20,137 bases of DNA, taken from positions 1 through 20,137 of the IMG/VR virus record IMGVR_UViG_3300032360_000065; one strand, written 5' to 3'. The notes under the pieces were generated by a model that worked only from the letters and a program-made list of their open reading frames with translations, did not search any database and had not been told where the DNA came from. Shown here piece after piece: positions 4,069-19,791 of the stretch; positions within the stretch are counted from its first letter, which is position 1; every line of letters starts with the position of its first letter. This DNA is from a virus. The translations under genes were made by a program, and so were the position numbers.

Positions 4069-4445
4069 CTTACTGCCCTCTCCATCTGATTAAAAATAAC
4101 TGCTTTCTTCTTTCGGAAATACTCTGCAATTTCCATTTCATACCGCCTACTTCTTTCAATAATATTTTGAATCTCTCTATCATATTGTGCTTGAGAAATT
4201 CGACCTGTATTATATCTAGAACAGAGTTCTTGATATTCAGCAACCATATACTGCACACTTCCGCTCCAATCAACACCCCGTGAATCTTTGAATGCGATTT
4301 CAGGTCCAACTCCAAAACCCCATCCACCAAACTTCCATCCCAATGCTATAGCAAATTCTTTTTTATCCATGACCTCGCAGTCCTGTTTCTCAACAGCATC
4401 TGCTATTCCGGTCATGAATAATAATAGAAATAATATGTAACGCAT
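4065..4445 (-). CDS. Small exported protein, first of the secreted trio
   Basis: This 126-residue product begins with a clear signal peptide (MRYILFLLLFMTGIADA, likely cleaved after ADA). The mature protein has a short glycine-rich section (ALGWKFGGWGFGVGPEIAF, about residues 34-52), two cysteines (Cys23 and one near residue 75), and a helical, charged C-terminus with a YQELCSRYNTGRIS segment. Proteins of this kind are, to my recollection, found next to LPP20/CsgG-like genes in bacteria. I cannot name the family with confidence. Its ATG overlaps the stop of the AAA+ gene (TAATG), so all three secreted genes are co-transcribed with that ATPase. An alternative 86-residue frame in the same place is a shadow. 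Confidence 0.75.
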   Translation of the reverse strand: MRYILFLLLFMTGIADAVEKQDCEVMDKKEFAIALGWKFGGWGFGVGPEIAFKDSRGVDWSGSVQYMVAEYQELCSRYNTGRISQAQYDREIQNIIERSRRYEMEIAEYFRKKKAVIFNQMERAVR

Positions 4446-5686
4446 TAGAACGGTACCTGATCGTCTTTATTCTCAATTGGCTTTGCATCTTCTGTATCAT
4501 CCGATTCTACATCACCCTCTAATGATACACCCGCATCAACCTTTGTATATAAATCCGAAAAGGATTCTTTTGTCTCTGTGTCAAAACGTTCAAGACACAT
4601 CACTACAGATTTCATTTTATCACCAAAGATGACAAATGATTTCGTAATATCAATCAACCTTCGGGTGGTGATAATTTCATCAACAGCACCTTCTTTATAA
4701 GATTGTCGAATTACATCCGCCCATTTAACTAACTTATCTACAAAGTCATCTTCCTGAATATCATGAACGGAAAATTGCTTCTTAAGTATTTTAGCTTCAT
4801 AAGCAGCTGAAGGATATTCTTGATAAAAGGTAGCTGAAAAACGATCAAGAAATGCTTCATTCAAGATATTGGTTCCCATGAAACGTCCATCTTCAGAACC
4901 CTTACCTTTTGTATTAGCCGTTGCCACAATATTAAAACCGGGCTTCGGATAAACCACTTCATTAATCTTCTTCAAATAAATTGGCTGACCTTCCATGATC
5001 GGTTGTAAGCACATAATCTTATGTGATGCTAAGTCAATTTCATCAATAAGTGCAACAGCACCGGTTCGCATAGCGACGATGATAGGACCATCCTGCCAAA
5101 CCGTTTCACCGTTAACTAATCGGAAACCACCAAGCAAGTCATCCTCATCCGTCTCAACAGTAATGTTAACACGAACGAAGTCACGTTTAAGTTTAGCACA
5201 AACTTCCCGAATCATGGAGGTCTTGCCGTTACCAGAAAGACCAGTAACAAACAGCGGATAAAATATTCGCTTCTCTAAAACGGTCTTAATGTCTTTAAAA
5301 TGTCCCCAAGATACATATTGAGGATCTCTTTTAGGAATGAGGTTAATAATAAAAGGAGCCGCATTAGCAACTACTTTCGGTTTCACCGGAGCTTCAGATA
5401 AAACTTCCCAATCAGATTCGAGAGTTTTTTGCTTCTCTTCCACTTTACTTGCTTCAATGCTAACTGTAGCATTCCCAGCAAATGAAAATAGACCCGGTTC
5501 AACTTCACAATGTCTTTTCAAGACGATTTTATAAATGGCAGGCCATTTACTTTTTAAATCCTCACCACATGAAACGAGCGCACTTTTGGCTTGTTCCAAT
5601 GTGAATGCTCCAACACCATAGAGCTTATCAATTTCTGCTTTGAAAGCTCTGCGAGTTGAAGTTGAATTCATATCAAGCTTCTTCAT
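4445..5686 (-). CDS. cobS: CobS-like MoxR-family AAA+ ATPase
   Basis: A 413-residue AAA+ ATPase of the MoxR/CobS type, the version often labelled cobS in marine T4-like phages. The sequence has an N-terminal domain of about 110 residues, Walker A GLSGNGKT at 149-156, Walker B VALIDEID at 211-218, sensor-1 NIVATANT at about 252-259 and LDRFS at about 280-284. MoxR-type ATPases pair with VWA-domain proteins, and the VWA gene lies immediately upstream. No other cobalt-chelatase subunit is visible, so a protein or metal-remodelling role is more likely than cobalamin synthesis. The start ATG has AGGAG 11 nt upstream. The gene has its own consensus promoter at 5730-5758. The acidic C-terminus (ESDDTEDAKPIENKDDQ) is a flexible tail. 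Confidence 0.9.
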   Translation of the reverse strand: MKKLDMNSTSTRRAFKAEIDKLYGVGAFTLEQAKSALVSCGEDLKSKWPAIYKIVLKRHCEVEPGLFSFAGNATVSIEASKVEEKQKTLESDWEVLSEAPVKPKVVANAAPFIINLIPKRDPQYVSWGHFKDIKTVLEKRIFYPLFVTGLSGNGKTSMIREVCAKLKRDFVRVNITVETDEDDLLGGFRLVNGETVWQDGPIIVAMRTGAVALIDEIDLASHKIMCLQPIMEGQPIYLKKINEVVYPKPGFNIVATANTKGKGSEDGRFMGTNILNEAFLDRFSATFYQEYPSAAYEAKILKKQFSVHDIQEDDFVDKLVKWADVIRQSYKEGAVDEIITTRRLIDITKSFVIFGDKMKSVVMCLERFDTETKESFSDLYTKVDAGVSLEGDVESDDTEDAKPIENKDDQVPF

Positions 5687-5729: not shown

Positions 5730-5758
5730 ATTATAACAAATTTTCACGGGTTTGTCAA
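5730..5758 (-). promoter_or_regulatory. Consensus sigma70-type promoter for the AAA+ gene
   Basis: On the minus strand TTGACA (5758-5753) is followed after exactly 17 bp by TATAAT (5735-5730), with TG one base before the -10 (extended -10). Both hexamers are perfect consensus matches. Transcription would start near 5723, giving a leader of roughly 35-40 nt. This is how a strong early phage promoter read by host polymerase looks. Confidence 0.9.
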
Positions 5759-5807
5759 GGAAAAAGCGCCATTGTAACCCATTGAAAACAAACAATAAGT
5801 GAAAATA
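5753..5807 (-). repeat. 55-bp direct repeat, copy A (upstream of the AAA+ gene)
   Basis: These 55 bp are identical, base for base, to 8325-8379. In both copies the minus-strand 3' end of the repeat is the TTGACA -35 box, so the repeat covers the -35 and about 50 bp upstream of it, while the -10 regions and leaders differ. It contains a GTTACA motif, and a second GTTACA lies just outside at 5810-5815. It is most likely a shared promoter/operator or UP-like element. Confidence 0.95.
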
Positions 5808-5851
5808 AATGTAACTCCTTATATTTAAAGGTTTTATTGGCTCGTTTAACG

Positions 5852-5919
5852 GCGATATAAGGCGATGTTATTTGACCCATATCCTACTATGTATTGAGGT
5901 AAATATCGCATTAAATCGC
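5852..5919 (-). repeat. Imperfect inverted repeat downstream of the VWA gene
   Basis: GCGATATAAGGCGAT (5852-5866) and ATCGCATTAAATCGC (5905-5919) are inverted copies with 13 of 15 positions matching, separated by 38 nt. It lies directly after the VWA stop codon. It could fold in the transcript as a 3' structure, or be four GCGAT protein-binding half sites. There is no U-tract, so a simple rho-independent terminator is not supported. Confidence 0.5.
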
Positions 5920-5925
5920 TGTATA

Positions 5926-8262
5926 TTAAGCCGTAATTAGATCCACGAATCTAGACAGGATAACCCTCGTTGATTTAAACTGGCTATTTTGTCTAGAAAA
6001 GAGGGTAGACATCTTACGAGTGGTCATCTTTTCGTCGATTTCACCAATCGCCTGATTCTTGTTCAATGCTTGAATAACATAATATTCATCATATCCTGAT
6101 TCCGTCTTTATAAAGAAACCAGCTTTCTTTGCTTCAGAAATCCAATTTCTAAATTTCTCTTTACCAGCCGGATGATTCTTATTATAATCTCTAGGAGAAA
6201 ATCTCCATAATGCGTTTGGAGTAAATCTTGGAATAATATAAAAACCGACAATATTGATATCCAGTCTTGATTTAACCACATCGAAAAGTGAAGGGGTAAG
6301 ACCATGCTGTCCACCACTCTTTCCTATTATATGGTTCTTCTTCGTTTTCTTATCCTGCAAATACAATGTATCGTATTGACGGCGAATATATGTACCTTCC
6401 ATTTTTTTCGCATCCCATTCATAAGTACTACCATTTGCTTCACCATCAGTTAACCATACTGCATTAACATTTTGCAGATTATTTCGTTTCGTAAAATCTC
6501 GAATAATATGCTCTGATAATAAGATAGCACCATTCAACGGTGTTCCGTGTAATTCTTCCTCTTGTGGAACTGGATAATTATGGTTATAACTTCCATAAGA
6601 ACCACCCCGTGTATAGTTATAACGATTTGCTAAAATACAAAGATTACGCAATGCGTTATTAAATTCAACCTTTGACATTCTGCTAGAAAGAAAATTTCTC
6701 AATCCAACATGCCTATCAACTGATAAATCGCCATGCTTACATTTAAAGATTGGTTCTTTCTTTCTAACCTTATCACCATCTACATTATAAACACTTCGTT
6801 CTGTAAAACTGTATACTTCAAAAGGAATGTTTACTTTTTGACAAAACATAGACAACTCAATTAACTGTCGAATGGTTCCATATAAATTTTCAGACATCGA
6901 ACCAGACCAATCAACAAACATCACTAAACCATGATTTTTGCCATCAGCAACACGAACGTTCTTTTTAAATACATCATCATTATATGACGCAGAAAACATT
7001 TTATTGGTATCTAAAATACCAGTTTTGGTCACCAATGTTCTTTTATATACATCAGCTGCTTTCTTCCTCTCAAATTCCATAGCAATATGATTTACATTCT
7101 TGCCGGATTCCTTTTTAATTGCCTCTAAGGTTTCCCTTGCATAACCATAAACGCGGTCTCTGAGATCCTTATGTGACGCATCATTATAATAAGTACCACC
7201 AGTTTTCCAAAATATATGATCCTTAGAATCATAAAACTCGTTAATGTTTCGATGTACTTCCTTATAATCAACAATCGCACTTTTCCAATTAACATTATCC
7301 GGTACTGTGATATAATGTACTTTATGATCCACATGTGCAAATGACTCTATACGTTCTGCAAAATTTCGTTGGGTCTCAGCACGAACAGGATCATCATCAT
7401 CATTTGGCTCTGGAGGCTCGTCAGACATTTTTTCATCAATGAGAACTTCATCATCTTCATCTTTTATCTTATTAAAAGCATCATCCAACTCTTCTTCTTC
7501 AGTTTTGGGTTTTTCTTCCCAATCACCATCATCTTCACCATCTTCATCTTCTTCGCCTTCTTCTTCACCATCTATTTCATCTTCTGATTCTTCTTCATCT
7601 TCACCTTCTTGAAGTTCGGCAGATTCTCCTTCTTCACCTGACTGAGGGAAATCATCATCATTATATTCCGTGGGAGGTTGGTCAGTCGGAGTACCCTGCT
7701 CAAATAATTCGTTATCCTTTATATATTGGTGAATTTCTTTTGCTACGGCTTCAACATCGGCGAATGTTTTTACATCCGCTACCTTATCAACCATTTTCTG
7801 TTCGTCATCATTAAAAGAAACAGAAACCGCCTGATTAAGTTTAAAACGCAAATTAATACGATCCAAAAAAGGCAGCTCATTTACAATCTTGTCTTTCACA
7901 CCAAAAAAGTCGTTTTTATTTAAATGATCATATCCACGATAGAATTGTTTTCTCAAACCCGGATATTTGTTTTTAACGAGTTTTTCAATTCTAGCATCTT
8001 CAATTACATTGACGCAATCTTTGGAGGTTTCTTTATTAATCTTCTTGAGACGATCGGGATTAGTAGGGGTGAAAAGAGCATGTCCAACCTCATGACCTAA
8101 AAGTAAGTCATATAAATGATTAGGCATATCTTTCCAAACAGGTAAGATGATACATCGATTCTGAACATCAAACATAGCCGTTTTAACTTGTCTATGTTGA
8201 ACATCCAAATCTTCGACTGCTAACAATTTTGCTAGCTTTTCTTTTGATTCAATCTTCATCAT
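5926..8262 (-). CDS. cobT: CobT-like protein: HExxH peptidase-type domain plus VWA domain
   Basis: A protein of about 778 residues with three parts. Near the N-terminus is a zinc-peptidase-like motif HEVGH (about 57-61), followed by EDARIE (about 88-93) as the possible third ligand region. A very acidic linker of Asp/Glu runs from about 200 to 290. A C-terminal VWA domain carries a complete MIDAS set: DWSGS (about 451-455), a GTPL segment and LTDGEAN. The segment before the VWA (MEFERKKAADVYKRTLVTKTGILDT) is typical of CobT-like VWA proteins. The start is the ATG at 8262, with AAGGA 8 nt upstream. The longer frame begins at a TTG within the ribosome-site region. It is the natural partner of the AAA+ ATPase immediately downstream, and both are driven by twin promoters. 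The MIDAS looks able to bind metal. The real substrate is unknown. Confidence 0.9.
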   Translation of the reverse strand: MMKIESKEKLAKLLAVEDLDVQHRQVKTAMFDVQNRCIILPVWKDMPNHLYDLLLGHEVGHALFTPTNPDRLKKINKETSKDCVNVIEDARIEKLVKNKYPGLRKQFYRGYDHLNKNDFFGVKDKIVNELPFLDRINLRFKLNQAVSVSFNDDEQKMVDKVADVKTFADVEAVAKEIHQYIKDNELFEQGTPTDQPPTEYNDDDFPQSGEEGESAELQEGEDEEESEDEIDGEEEGEEDEDGEDDGDWEEKPKTEEEELDDAFNKIKDEDDEVLIDEKMSDEPPEPNDDDDPVRAETQRNFAERIESFAHVDHKVHYITVPDNVNWKSAIVDYKEVHRNINEFYDSKDHIFWKTGGTYYNDASHKDLRDRVYGYARETLEAIKKESGKNVNHIAMEFERKKAADVYKRTLVTKTGILDTNKMFSASYNDDVFKKNVRVADGKNHGLVMFVDWSGSMSENLYGTIRQLIELSMFCQKVNIPFEVYSFTERSVYNVDGDKVRKKEPIFKCKHGDLSVDRHVGLRNFLSSRMSKVEFNNALRNLCILANRYNYTRGGSYGSYNHNYPVPQEEELHGTPLNGAILLSEHIIRDFTKRNNLQNVNAVWLTDGEANGSTYEWDAKKMEGTYIRRQYDTLYLQDKKTKKNHIIGKSGGQHGLTPSLFDVVKSRLDINIVGFYIIPRFTPNALWRFSPRDYNKNHPAGKEKFRNWISEAKKAGFFIKTESGYDEYYVIQALNKNQAIGEIDEKMTTRKMSTLFSRQNSQFKSTRVILSRFVDLITA

Positions 8263-8301
8263 TCCAATTGTCCTTCTCAATTAATCATTAAATATACTAC
8301 C

Positions 8302-8330
8302 ATTTTAAAGCAATTGGAAAGGAATGTCAA
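8302..8330 (-). promoter_or_regulatory. Sigma70-type promoter for the VWA gene
   Basis: On the minus strand TTGACA (8330-8325) is followed after 17 bp by TAAAAT (8307-8302), a near-consensus -10. The start would be near 8295, giving a leader of about 33 nt that includes the AAGGA ribosome site. The -35 is the end of repeat copy B. Confidence 0.88.
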
Positions 8331-8379
8331 GGAAAAAGCGCCATTGTAACCCATTGAAAACAAACAATAAGTGAAAATA
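8325..8379 (-). repeat. 55-bp direct repeat, copy B (upstream of the VWA gene)
   Basis: Identical over 55 bp to 5753-5807, and placed identically relative to a TTGACA -35 box. Similarity continues weakly upstream: a GTTACA motif at 8383-8388 (spacing 38 bp, versus 37 bp in copy A) and the CCTTATATTTAAAGG motif at 8429-8443. Between those two motifs copy B has about 40 bp more than copy A, and that extra stretch is the hairpin at 8398-8435. Confidence 0.95.
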
Positions 8380-8397
8380 CTTTGTAACGCCTTTGTT

Positions 8398-8435
8398 TAT
8401 AAGGGGTTATATTTTAAAGCATATAACCCCTTATA
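8398..8435 (-). terminator. Perfect 15-bp stem-loop just after hsp20
   Basis: TATAAGGGGTTATAT (8398-8412) and ATATAACCCCTTATA (8421-8435) are perfect inverted copies around an 8-nt loop. The hairpin begins 14 nt after the hsp20 stop codon. It is probably a transcription barrier separating hsp20 from the next promoter, or a 3' RNA-stabilising structure. No U-tract follows on the minus strand, so terminator activity is inferred, not shown. Confidence 0.6.
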
Positions 8436-8449
8436 TTTAAAGGACTTAT

Positions 8450-8872
8450 TTACTTAATATCTATGATTTTTGGCTTATCCGACACCCTCTTCGGCAAAGT
8501 AATCGCCAAAACACCATTTTCCATCTCAGCAGATACTTTATCCGCATTAACGGCGCGTGGAAAGTTATTGAAAGTCTGATCGGTTTTTACACCATAAAAT
8601 TGTGAATCATTATCAGATACTTCCTTCTTACATTTAATAGTAAGTGTTCCCTCTTTAAATGTAAGATCAATATCCTTCTTGGTCATACCCGGCATAACAA
8701 TATCCAAAGTATAAGCTTCATCGGTTTCATTCCAACGATACTTATTATGTGGACGATGTGATACGCTAGTTGTCCATGGATCATTATTCATAAGATAATT
8801 ATCAAAACGATCCCAATTTGTCCAAGCTGGAAAAATATCATCAAAAAGGTTATTATGTTTAATTAAGTTCAT
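8450..8872 (-). CDS. hsp20: Hsp20-family small heat-shock protein
   Basis: A 140-residue alpha-crystallin-type chaperone. The alpha-crystallin domain is clear: YRWNETDEAYTLDIVMPGMTKKDIDLTFKEGTLTIKC, then NFPRAVNADKVSAEMENGVLAITLPK, ending with a short tail containing an I-x-I-like IDIK. The N-terminal region (IKHNNLFDDIFPAWTNWDRFDNYL) is the variable part. The start is the ATG at 8872, with an AAGGAG ribosome site 6 nt upstream. The longer frame starts at a TTG upstream of that site. Hsp20 is a common passenger of marine T4-like phages, thought to protect proteins or help assembly. It has its own promoter at 8923-8951 and a hairpin after the stop. It sits just before the VWA/AAA+ pair, which may be its functional partners. 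Confidence 0.95.
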   Translation of the reverse strand: MNLIKHNNLFDDIFPAWTNWDRFDNYLMNNDPWTTSVSHRPHNKYRWNETDEAYTLDIVMPGMTKKDIDLTFKEGTLTIKCKKEVSDNDSQFYGVKTDQTFNNFPRAVNADKVSAEMENGVLAITLPKRVSDKPKIIDIK

Positions 8873-8897
8873 TCTATTCTCCTTCAATTAAGGTTAT

Positions 8898-12965: not shown

Positions 12966-13137
12966 GATAATATTTCCTTGTCCATTTAAAGTGACATCTA
13001 GTACATTCAAACGTTTGTGTTGCTATACCATCTATATGTTCTACATCATAACTACAATTTGTAAATGCATGATCTGGTTCATGCTCTTTACATCTTGGAC
13101 ATTCTTCCATAGCCATTATGTTATAATCAGTGGCCAC
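12943..13137 (-). CDS. 64-aa zinc-ribbon protein between proline dehydrogenase and gp47
   Basis: A small protein with four zinc-ribbon cysteines in two pairs, CPRC near the N-terminus and CTRC near residue 46, plus a Cys in the loop (FTNC). It ends in a basic and acidic tail (KWTRKYYHEDSPDN). The start is a GTG at 13137, supported by an AAGGA ribosome site 8 nt upstream. Later ATGs (13116, 13110) lack one. It overlaps proline dehydrogenase by 11 nt and gp47 by 23 nt. A nucleic-acid or protein-binding adaptor is the likely type of role. No named family is recognised. Confidence 0.75.
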   Translation of the reverse strand: MATDYNIMAMEECPRCKEHEPDHAFTNCSYDVEHIDGIATQTFECTRCHFKWTRKYYHEDSPDN

Positions 13138-14023
13138 TAAAGAATTCCTTTATAATATTAGTAAAAACAAATTTTAAATTTTTAAACTCTCTTAATCTCC
13201 GTAAAGTATATGGTAACCAATCTTCACCGAATGGTACATATAGTCTAACACAATATCCTTGTTTTTTCAAGGAAGAACTTAAATCGCGTCGTATCCCGTA
13301 TAACATTTCAATAAACAAATCATCTTTAGCTATATTAAATCGATTTAAATAACCAAGGATATCATCTATTAACGGTTCATCATGTGTTCCTATAGATGGT
13401 ATCGGTGATGTATCATTCTTATAATGATAATAAGTTCGACATCTATCTGTTACCAACCGCAAAGCTTGTTTCAAAAATATATCATATAATAAATCTTTTC
13501 TCTGATATGCTATATCAATATCTTCTTTATATGCGCCCTTTACCAATCTAACCGACACACCCTTTTCCATCATATAAGTTAAATCTTGTTCTGTCCTATA
13601 AAGATTCGCCTGAAGAGCAATCCCAATATTGGGATAGTCTTTATGTAATTTTAAGCATAAATCAATTGTGTCTTGTGTTACGGCCGAACCCTCCATATCC
13701 AAACGAATAGTTAAACCATGCTCATATGCCTTAGCAACCAAATCAATCAAACGAACATGACAGTCTGTTTTATCTAACAATAAACCTAATTGAGTTGGTT
13801 TAATTGATATGTCAATAGGGATATGAAGTGTTCCATAATATTCTATAATATCAACATACTGTTGCCATGCCTTTTGACAATCTTCTTCAGTCTTACTTAA
13901 TTCACCAAGATAATCAATTGTTATATCATAACCATCCCATATCAACTTAGAGATTACAGGTATAGCAGACTCAAAATTATGTCCAGCAATAAATCTTTTT
14001 GCTAACGGATATAAAAATTTCAT
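13127..14023 (-). CDS. Proline dehydrogenase (monofunctional PRODH)
   Basis: FAD enzyme that oxidises L-proline to pyrroline-5-carboxylate and passes the electrons to quinone. The 298-residue length is right for monofunctional bacterial PRODH (about 300). The barrel motifs occur in order: SIKPTQLGL (Lys75), RLDMEGS (Asp109), LQANLYRTEQDL (about 137-147), VRLVKGAYKE (Arg159, Lys162), GTHD (about 212-215), FIEMLYGIRRDL (Glu239) and RLYVPFGEDWLPYTLRRL (Tyr262, Arg275, Arg276, the proline-carboxylate site). No key residue is missing, so it is probably active. There is no P5C dehydrogenase domain or partner gene. It lies between gp55 and gp47, overlapping gp55 by ATGA, so it is expressed with the middle/recombination operon. 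It is best read as an auxiliary metabolic gene from a bacterial host. Confidence 0.93.
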   Translation of the reverse strand: MKFLYPLAKRFIAGHNFESAIPVISKLIWDGYDITIDYLGELSKTEEDCQKAWQQYVDIIEYYGTLHIPIDISIKPTQLGLLLDKTDCHVRLIDLVAKAYEHGLTIRLDMEGSAVTQDTIDLCLKLHKDYPNIGIALQANLYRTEQDLTYMMEKGVSVRLVKGAYKEDIDIAYQRKDLLYDIFLKQALRLVTDRCRTYYHYKNDTSPIPSIGTHDEPLIDDILGYLNRFNIAKDDLFIEMLYGIRRDLSSSLKKQGYCVRLYVPFGEDWLPYTLRRLREFKNLKFVFTNIIKEFFSGH

Positions 14024-18399: not shown

Positions 18400-18434
18400 A
18401 TATATATAAACCTCCGAACCACTCTAACATAATA

Positions 18435-18463
18435 ATATTACCATATTCAAAAAGGCAATACAA
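18435..18463 (-). promoter_or_regulatory. Candidate sigma70-like promoter upstream of the tail-tube-fold gene
   Basis: On the minus strand TTGTAT (18463-18458), 17 bp, then TAATAT (18440-18435). The hexamers are imperfect, but spacing and the preceding TTTTTCC (giving TTTTTCCTTG) match the -35 context of the uvsY, AAA+ and VWA promoters. It would give an early start near 18428, upstream of the late promoter. Confidence 0.5.
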
Positions 18464-18476
18464 GGAAAAACTTCAT

Positions 18477-18509
18477 AAAAAAAGGGGATAGGGAAAAATC
18501 CCCATCCCC
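18477..18509 (-). terminator. Rho-independent terminator after gp23
   Basis: On the minus strand GGGGATGGGG (18509-18500) pairs with CCCTATCCCC (18493-18484), a 10-bp GC-rich stem with one G-U pair and a short T-rich loop, followed at once by a run of seven T. It lies 22 nt after the gp23 stop. The G-U pair becomes an A-C mismatch on the plus strand, so the structure is designed for minus-strand transcripts. Confidence 0.93.
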
Positions 18510-18531
18510 TCTAATTTAAGTAAAATTAAGA

Positions 18532-19791
18532 TTACATTAGGTTAGTAACATTAACTTTCCTGTAGTACTGATTACCATTACTGGTAGTCGTACCAGCTTG
18601 GTTGGCGGTTACGAATGGATTATCAACAATTCCATACCGAGTCTTGAAACCAATTTTCGGTTGGAAAGTGTTCTCACCCATTGCACGTACCATCTGCAGC
18701 GGAACGTAAGGACAATAAAACATTCCTGCATCATAAGGACTGGTGCCCTTATAACCAACAACATAAAATTGACCAGCGGTTGAGCCATAGTAAGGATCAA
18801 CAAATACTTTCATACCGTTGAACGTGCCAACATAGGTATTAGCATGAGAATCCCCAGCAACTGGATGTCCAGTTTCGAGCATTCCAGCCATAGCCAATGC
18901 AGAAGCGATATCAGCAGAACAGATCATAAAATTACCTCGGCCTCGACGGGTGTCAAAACCAATTTCGTTACGATCGCGTTCAATCTGATACATCAAACCT
19001 TTAAATTTCTCAACTGACCATCGGCCGTTAGAGTCAACATCAAGGTTAAAATGACCAGGCGTTGCCGTATTCGTAGCTGCACCATAACGTGCATTTTTAT
19101 AAACTCTACGAATAATCTCGCGGTTAATTTCATGGAGAATTTCAGTAGAAAGAATATTTGACAATTCTGTCTCTGCATCCAAACCATGAACAGCTTTCAA
19201 GTCTTGAGCAAGTTCCGTTGAATACTCGGCTTTGAGGGCACGAGACTTTGCAGTTACGGAAGTTTTGTCAATACTGAATGCCATCTCTTGGAAAATAATT
19301 CCACCAGAAGAACCCTGTGCTTCGGCGACTGACGTTTCAACTGCTTCACCAGATGTCCAAGTTCCCTCAAACGGGTTGTTGGTGCCATCTATTGCAACGT
19401 GAGCAGGCGTACCATCGTTATCACCAGAGAAAGCTGTGTTGGCTTCGCCATGAAGCGCTTCAGTTCCATCCTGTGTAGAATAAGCTGATTTCATTGCAAA
19501 AATCAATCCGGTAGGTCCAGACATAGGCTGAACACCACAGACGTCATAAGCAATCAGATGTGGCATGGCTCGACGAACCAAAGACATCAAAATAGGATCC
19601 CAAGCATCAACGTTAGTACCAGACACAGGATGTTGACCTGAGTTAATTGGTGCGGCTTCTGAAAGGAATTGTGCTTGATTCTCAAGTAGTCGTAAAGTTA
19701 CATCCCGTCTATAGGAATCTTTAATTTCAGGAAGGTCTTTGTGCTCCATTACTGGTGCCCATTTTTCCTTCAAAGTTTCAGATAAATACAT
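18532..19791 (-). CDS. 23: Major capsid protein gp23
   Basis: T4-type HK97-fold capsid precursor, 419 residues. Family signatures include AWDPILMSLVRRAMPHLIAYDVCGVQPMSGPTGLIFAM near the N-terminus, and YSTELAQDLKAVHGLDAETELSNILSTEI, FKGLMYQIERDRNEIG, RGRGNFMICS and ARYGIV-type segments after it. The N-terminal 45 residues form a scaffold-like propeptide ending in FLSE, a match to the prohead protease gp21 site (Leu-x-Glu), so the mature chain likely starts at Ala46. A strong AAAGGAG ribosome site lies 8 nt upstream. The gene is preceded by gp22 and followed by a terminator, which fits a highly expressed late gene. Confidence 0.97.
   Translation of the reverse strand: MYLSETLKEKWAPVMEHKDLPEIKDSYRRDVTLRLLENQAQFLSEAAPINSGQHPVSGTNVDAWDPILMSLVRRAMPHLIAYDVCGVQPMSGPTGLIFAMKSAYSTQDGTEALHGEANTAFSGDNDGTPAHVAIDGTNNPFEGTWTSGEAVETSVAEAQGSSGGIIFQEMAFSIDKTSVTAKSRALKAEYSTELAQDLKAVHGLDAETELSNILSTEILHEINREIIRRVYKNARYGAATNTATPGHFNLDVDSNGRWSVEKFKGLMYQIERDRNEIGFDTRRGRGNFMICSADIASALAMAGMLETGHPVAGDSHANTYVGTFNGMKVFVDPYYGSTAGQFYVVGYKGTSPYDAGMFYCPYVPLQMVRAMGENTFQPKIGFKTRYGIVDNPFVTANQAGTTTSNGNQYYRKVNVTNLM

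Follow-up and report, generated by a model that had tools for sequence, protein, structure and literature searches.

Promoters assisted by IHF include lambda pL, Mu Pe, and ilvPG, and classical IHF sites are located at about -85 to -90. IHF also co-activates phage-like GTA promoters in an alphaproteobacterium (PMC11150451). In T4-like phages, a further type of control region is known as the PeSL (promoter early stem-loop) cassette (PMC4503421). A PeSL is an intergenic unit that joins an early-type promoter to a stem-loop; each genome has a number of similar copies, which seem to have spread by recombination and adjoin genes that vary between relatives. The locus described here resembles PeSLs in these respects, most clearly in its promoter and its copy number. 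It lies beside a pair of genes for CobS- and CobT-like proteins, which occurs in the cyanophages and pelagiphages examined.

We analyzed a window of 20,137 nucleotides (positions 1 to 20,137 of IMG/VR virus record IMGVR_UViG_3300032360_000065), in which each gene of such a pair is preceded by a copy of a 55-bp repeat. Sequence comparisons suggested that the locus is probably a promoter/stem-loop cassette of the PeSL kind, in which a helically phased site would bind a DNA-bending protein of the host, with IHF as the leading candidate. It differs from PeSLs in that its most conserved part consists of a phased CAA-N4-TTACA motif and dyad units upstream of the -35 box, in that one copy (A) has no corresponding stem-loop, and in accompanying cobS/cobT-like genes instead of a dense hyperplastic region. 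The concept of PeSLs as mobile promoter cassettes would gain a regulator site. As in IHF-assisted promoters, including the alphaproteobacterial GTA promoters (PMC11150451), a site resembling the IHF consensus WATCAANNNNTTR (taken from PMC8942017) appears to lie upstream of the -35 and -10 boxes in a preferred rotational position. Unlike classical IHF sites, this candidate site is centered near -57, closer in and within dyad units.

The CobS/CobT-like pair of Kyanoviridae (cyanophages, HTVC008M, Mosig) comprises the same two genes in the same order, and HTVC008M has, as here, a sigma70-like promoter before each of them. No phased site or dyads were found in HTVC008M, Mosig, S-T4, and S-CREM1, all of which carry the gene pair. 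A tentative reading, on the doubtful side, is that a marine T4-like clade placed its CobS/CobT-like pair under a 29-bp dyad array and a phased site for a host factor, which would be a mode of early-promoter regulation undescribed for T4-like phages, with cassettes kept alike within a genome by gene conversion.

Identical Cassettes Upstream of the AAA+ and VWA Genes

All genes of the region, namely gp23 (18532-19791), UvsW, gp47/gp46, Hsp20, CobT-like VWA, and CobS-like AAA+, were located on the minus strand, as were all features of the window described below. The gene for a CobS/MoxR-like AAA+ ATPase (phrog_249, PF07728) spans positions 4445-5686. That for a CobT-like VWA/peptidase protein (phrog_459) spans 5926-8262, with an ATG start at 8262, although its longest open reading frame starts with TTG at 8280. 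A proline dehydrogenase gene (PF01619) at 13127-14023 is kept in several relatives.

Comparison of the window with itself showed that copy A of the cassette (5753-5807, upstream of the AAA+ gene) and copy B (8325-8379, upstream of the VWA gene) are identical at 55 of 55 positions, as an earlier note on this DNA had reported. This repeat, which on the minus strand reads TATTTTCACTTATTGTTTGTTTTCAATGGGTTACAATGGCGCTTTTTCCTTGACA, is by far the longest exact non-simple-sequence repeat in the window. The outer pieces that the earlier note described as shared were also recovered, both as units containing GTTACA (5810-5838 and 8383-8411) and as CCTTATATTTAAAGG, common to both outer regions, in which 5809-5838 pairs with 8421-8450. 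The -10 boxes and leaders of the two copies are unlike, and the conserved portion lies upstream of the -35 box, again in agreement with that note.

The repeat ends, as had been claimed, at a TTGACA box with a good -10 box 17 bp away. Core promoter A (5730-5758) combines TTGACA (5753-5758) with TATAAT (5730-5735), matches the consensus at 12 of 12 positions, and has a TG preceding its -10 box. Core promoter B (8302-8330), with TTGACA (8325-8330), a 17-bp spacer, and TAAAAT (8302-8307), matches at 11 of 12. Among 109 sigma70-like matches in the window, promoter A ranked first and promoter B within the top four. Since this total was not above the 104.6 expected in shuffles, most of the other matches are noise. 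From sequence alone, the cassettes thus contain the early sigma70-type promoter expected of a PeSL, and A and B are predicted to act as the promoters of the AAA+ and VWA genes that the earlier note took them for. Elsewhere in the window (18429-18512), gp23 is followed by a clear terminator, beyond which lies another TTTTTCCTTG site that resembles a promoter but lacks the phased motif.

A Third Copy and Copying Between Cassettes

The earlier note overlooked a third cassette and the loss of exact identity in sister genomes. Copy C, with four differences in 55 positions, was found on PBHE01000047, ahead of small genes of unknown function, so that the repeat is not confined to the AAA+ and VWA genes as that note had envisaged. 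PBHE01000046 represents the window's own species (97-99% nucleotide identity). Because metagenome 3300027677 shows an equivalent pairing of A/B-type and C-type contigs (17 kb + 22 kb), the three cassettes A, B, and C are most likely carried by a single phage, which gives the three conserved copies per genome that a PeSL-like organization implies. PBHE01000046 and PBHE01000047 (L037, L062, L072) derive from a T4-like phage that was apparently misbinned into the MAG Acidimicrobiaceae SP304.

An exact search of IMG/VR with the 55-mer matched the sister contig only. Copy B was unchanged across three sister sequences, and copy A, at ~97% identity between genomes, had one mismatch in C43 and two in the IMG contig. 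These mismatches indicate that perfect identity is peculiar to this sequence and that strong selection does not act on every one of the 55 bases, contrary to one proposal of the earlier note.

Its suggestion of recent copying or conversion fared better. Between the window and L137, three core positions had undergone the same change in A as in B (CAATGGG to CAACGAG; AATGG to AAAGG), and at no core position did the two genomes share a difference between A and B. Gene-specific letters were kept in the adjacent upstream dyad unit, which has GGAG in A and GGCG in B in either genome. Copying limited to ~55 bp best explains these parallel changes beside a gene-specific unit. The identity of A and B therefore looks like the outcome of recombinational copying (duplication or gene conversion) rather than of base-by-base selection, with conversion as the presumed mechanism. 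In L138, L140-L144, L146, and L158, copies A and B have unlike N4 letters. The VWA gene was present in every AAA-bearing contig that extended far enough upstream, which lends no support to the idea of a recombination hot spot that deletes it.

Conserved Architecture in Relatives

With the VWA and AAA+ proteins as queries, ~18 related genomes were retrieved, with VWA identities from 97% to ~43%. The 55-mer was present only in the window lineage and, altered, in L137/L148; deeper relatives retain both genes without the 55-bp repeat. Such relatives, which the earlier note would have counted against its interpretation, thus exist with respect to the 55-mer but not with respect to the underlying architecture. 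The order of a stem-loop (on the VWA side), one to three ~29-bp dyads, CAA-N4-TTACA, and a -35 box was found across the ~18 relatives and persists down to 43-47% VWA identity. Throughout the close group, both genes are preceded by CTTTTTCCTTGnnn-17-TATAAT or a near form, and CAA-N4-TTACA or a near form upstream of the -35 box is common to all promoters. In L138 and L143, the phased site before the AAA+ gene overlaps the VWA stop codon (CAACGGYTTAG). A recent chance duplication without regulatory meaning would account for perfect identity in one genome and for the divergence of copy A between sister genomes at about the genome-wide rate. It is nevertheless largely refuted by this retained architecture and by the near-perfect promoters at both ends, and is highly improbable.

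Between copy B and the hsp20 small heat-shock protein gene (8450-8887), which lies just upstream of that copy, a terminator-like stem-loop was identified at 8385-8448 (arms 8385-8412/8421-8448; MFE -26.4 kcal/mol, z -6.1), in keeping with the hairpin that the earlier note had placed at copy B. All 16 sequences folded showed a strong stem-loop before the VWA promoter. Its arms co-vary (GGGGTTA/TAACCCC, GGAGTTA/TAACTCC, GGGTTTA/TAAACCC, GGACTTA/TAAGTCC), and L141, L161, and L166 contain G-U pairs. A terminator-like TTATTTTA follows the stem-loop in relatives; the corresponding tail in the window is poor in T. The structure probably ends transcription from hsp20. Copy A lacks a stem-loop of this type; at some distance upstream of it, between the VWA stop codon and promoter A, lies a hairpin that is larger but imperfect (5849-5922, z -2.2). 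Similar hairpins in L137, L140, L144, L146, and L158 have changed arms and a partly kept loop, which is GACATACC in L140, L144, and L146. An Rfam search of the window gave no match.

Apparent Helical Phasing of the CAA-N4-TTACA Site

Phased sites A (5773-5784) and B (8345-8356), both CAATGGGTTACA, end 14 nt before their -35 boxes. Among 29 non-redundant promoters, the distance from the end of TTACA to the -35 box was 14 nt in 23 cases, including two degenerate sites that were placed by alignment (L139_A, L147_B), 24 nt in four, and 35 and 36 nt in one each. Three genomes that were found later and took no part in defining the spacing rule (L201, L203, L234) had 24 nt before the AAA+ gene and 37 nt before the VWA gene. 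The steps of 10 and 21-23 bp correspond to approximately one and two helical turns, with 36 and 37 nt (+22/+23) lying 1-2 bp off phase. The distance between the two upstream units also changes by about ten (offsets 51-52 versus 61-62). Spacing by helical turns is what a protein that needs to face RNA polymerase would impose, which, with about four to six independent spacing changes, is suggestive rather than proof. As the promoters are homologous, the fixed 14-nt spacing partly reflects descent. Overall, promoter and phased spacing are well supported as sequence features, and conserved motif and spacing together favor the upstream regulator site proposed in the earlier note. The 12-bp site and its spacing rule provide a concrete handle for finding the controlling factor.

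The spacing data also bear on the possibility that the locus is a plain PeSL-type recombination cassette, whose motif would be a by-product of shared ancestry and palindromic repeats and would bind no factor. Stem-loop and promoter do occur in one intergenic unit in three copies, L141 and L142 have a different gene ahead of the cassette (without visible shuffling junctions or deletions), and PeSLs are known in T4-like phages (PMC4503421). Such a cassette would predict neither spacing steps of a helical turn, nor near-invariant CAA and TTA around N4 letters that are free to vary between genomes, nor the presence of the core 19-mer in unrelated phages described below, and we regard it as quite unlikely.

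Dyad Units and a Candidate Binding Factor

Upstream of the -35 box, 29-bp dyads of the form TGTAAsTCCTT-N7-AAGGAsTTACA are repeated one to three times. The window contains one such unit upstream of copy A (5810-5838, AATAAAACCTTTAAATATAAGGAGTTACA, 23.2 bits) and two upstream of copy B (8383-8411, TATAACCCCTTATAAACAAAGGCGTTACA, 32.6 bits; 8422-8450, 22.7 bits), the second of which touches the hsp20 3' end. At a threshold of at least 16 bits, the dyad model matched 92 times in 505 kb of relatives and never in reversed sequence. Nearly all matches were located before VWA/AAA+ genes or at the copy-C site. Arms as in these units also occur in a near-perfect palindrome array, TGTAAGTCCTT-N7-AAGGACTTACA, in an unrelated phage (L194:4380-4780, IMGVR_UViG_3300010883_000115).

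The phased site itself resembles an IHF site. In copy A, TTTCAATGGGTTA has one mismatch to the IHF consensus. Of the 29 promoters, 21 carried this consensus with at most one mismatch at the phased site, which precedes the core promoter, versus 0.18% of positions elsewhere in the same upstream regions and 0.16% in shuffles. The remaining eight sites, with at least two mismatches, count against IHF, as do the conservation of TTACA beyond what the consensus requires and the dyad shape of the units, which is unexpected for an IHF site.

The core 19-mer TTGTTTTCAATGGGTTACA was present in 27 IMG/VR stretches and its reversed form in none. Together with two Roseobacter phages, the matches represent 11 contexts that are unrelated to one another. 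These include direct repeats next to a RepA-type helicase gene (CRP-811/823), the vicinity of primase/DnaB genes (L011 group), a divergent intergenic region in phages with a T4-type terminase (L010 group), and positions beside gp32- and gp23-like genes. Nucleotide searches of annotated phages gave short matches only, which revealed the 19-mer in Roseobacter, Rhodobacter, and Paracoccus phages; in the latter two, shorter perfect matches adjoin primase genes. With small changes, the 19-mer was also found in alphaproteobacterial genomes. A site common to unrelated phages suggests a host protein, and the phage contigs examined yielded no HU/IHF homologue. The motif was rare in Rhodobacteraceae-type genomes, the family of Sulfitobacter (8 of 120, two of which had been found via the motif; control 0), and therefore does not represent a widespread host promoter element in that family. 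Among candidate factors for the phased site, IHF fits best, an assignment that is plausible but falls a little short of probable. Beside replication genes of unrelated phages, the 19-mer may mark a host-factor site of many alphaproteobacterial replicons.

Near confinement of the dyads to these promoters keeps a phage regulator in consideration. The phased site and the 29-bp dyads would then be operators through which an activator or repressor encoded by the phage sets the timing of the CobS/CobT-like genes, in line with the repetition of the dyads and with conserved letters that reach beyond the IHF consensus. Such a regulator appears unlikely in view of the identical 19-mer in unrelated phages and its slightly changed form in alphaproteobacterial genomes; moreover, the promoter-proximal unit in the window lineage has lost its dyad, and a candidate regulator was not found in the fragments.

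Taken as a whole, we lean with modest confidence towards an upstream promoter half in at least three copies, with a helically phased host-factor site and with identity due to recombination. The 55-mer would form the upstream, controlling half of an early promoter of the sigma70 type, placed before the VWA gene, the AAA+ gene, and a cluster of small genes elsewhere in the phage. Its working core, CAA-N4-TTACA, would lie on the same helix face as the -35 box, with related dyad units further upstream. A host DNA-bending protein, most likely IHF, may bind the phased site, and the bent upstream DNA may strongly recruit host RNA polymerase. With a cassette before each partner gene, each would have its own promoter under common control, and this common phased element suggests that both proteins are meant to be made together. 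Recombination between cassettes, by duplication or gene conversion, would produce the letter-for-letter identity of A and B.

A literature search on the motif letters returned unrelated papers only. In L011, L014, L017, L018, L020, L027, L028, and L033, the 19-mer lies ~15-20 bp from a stretch that resembles a tRNA 3' half. An attP site was considered for the L011 group and dropped, as ARAGORN calls no tRNA there. In two alphaproteobacterial contigs (L036, L068), the motif adjoins a palindrome, TGTTTCGCGCGCGAAACA, that resembles a plasmid partition site.
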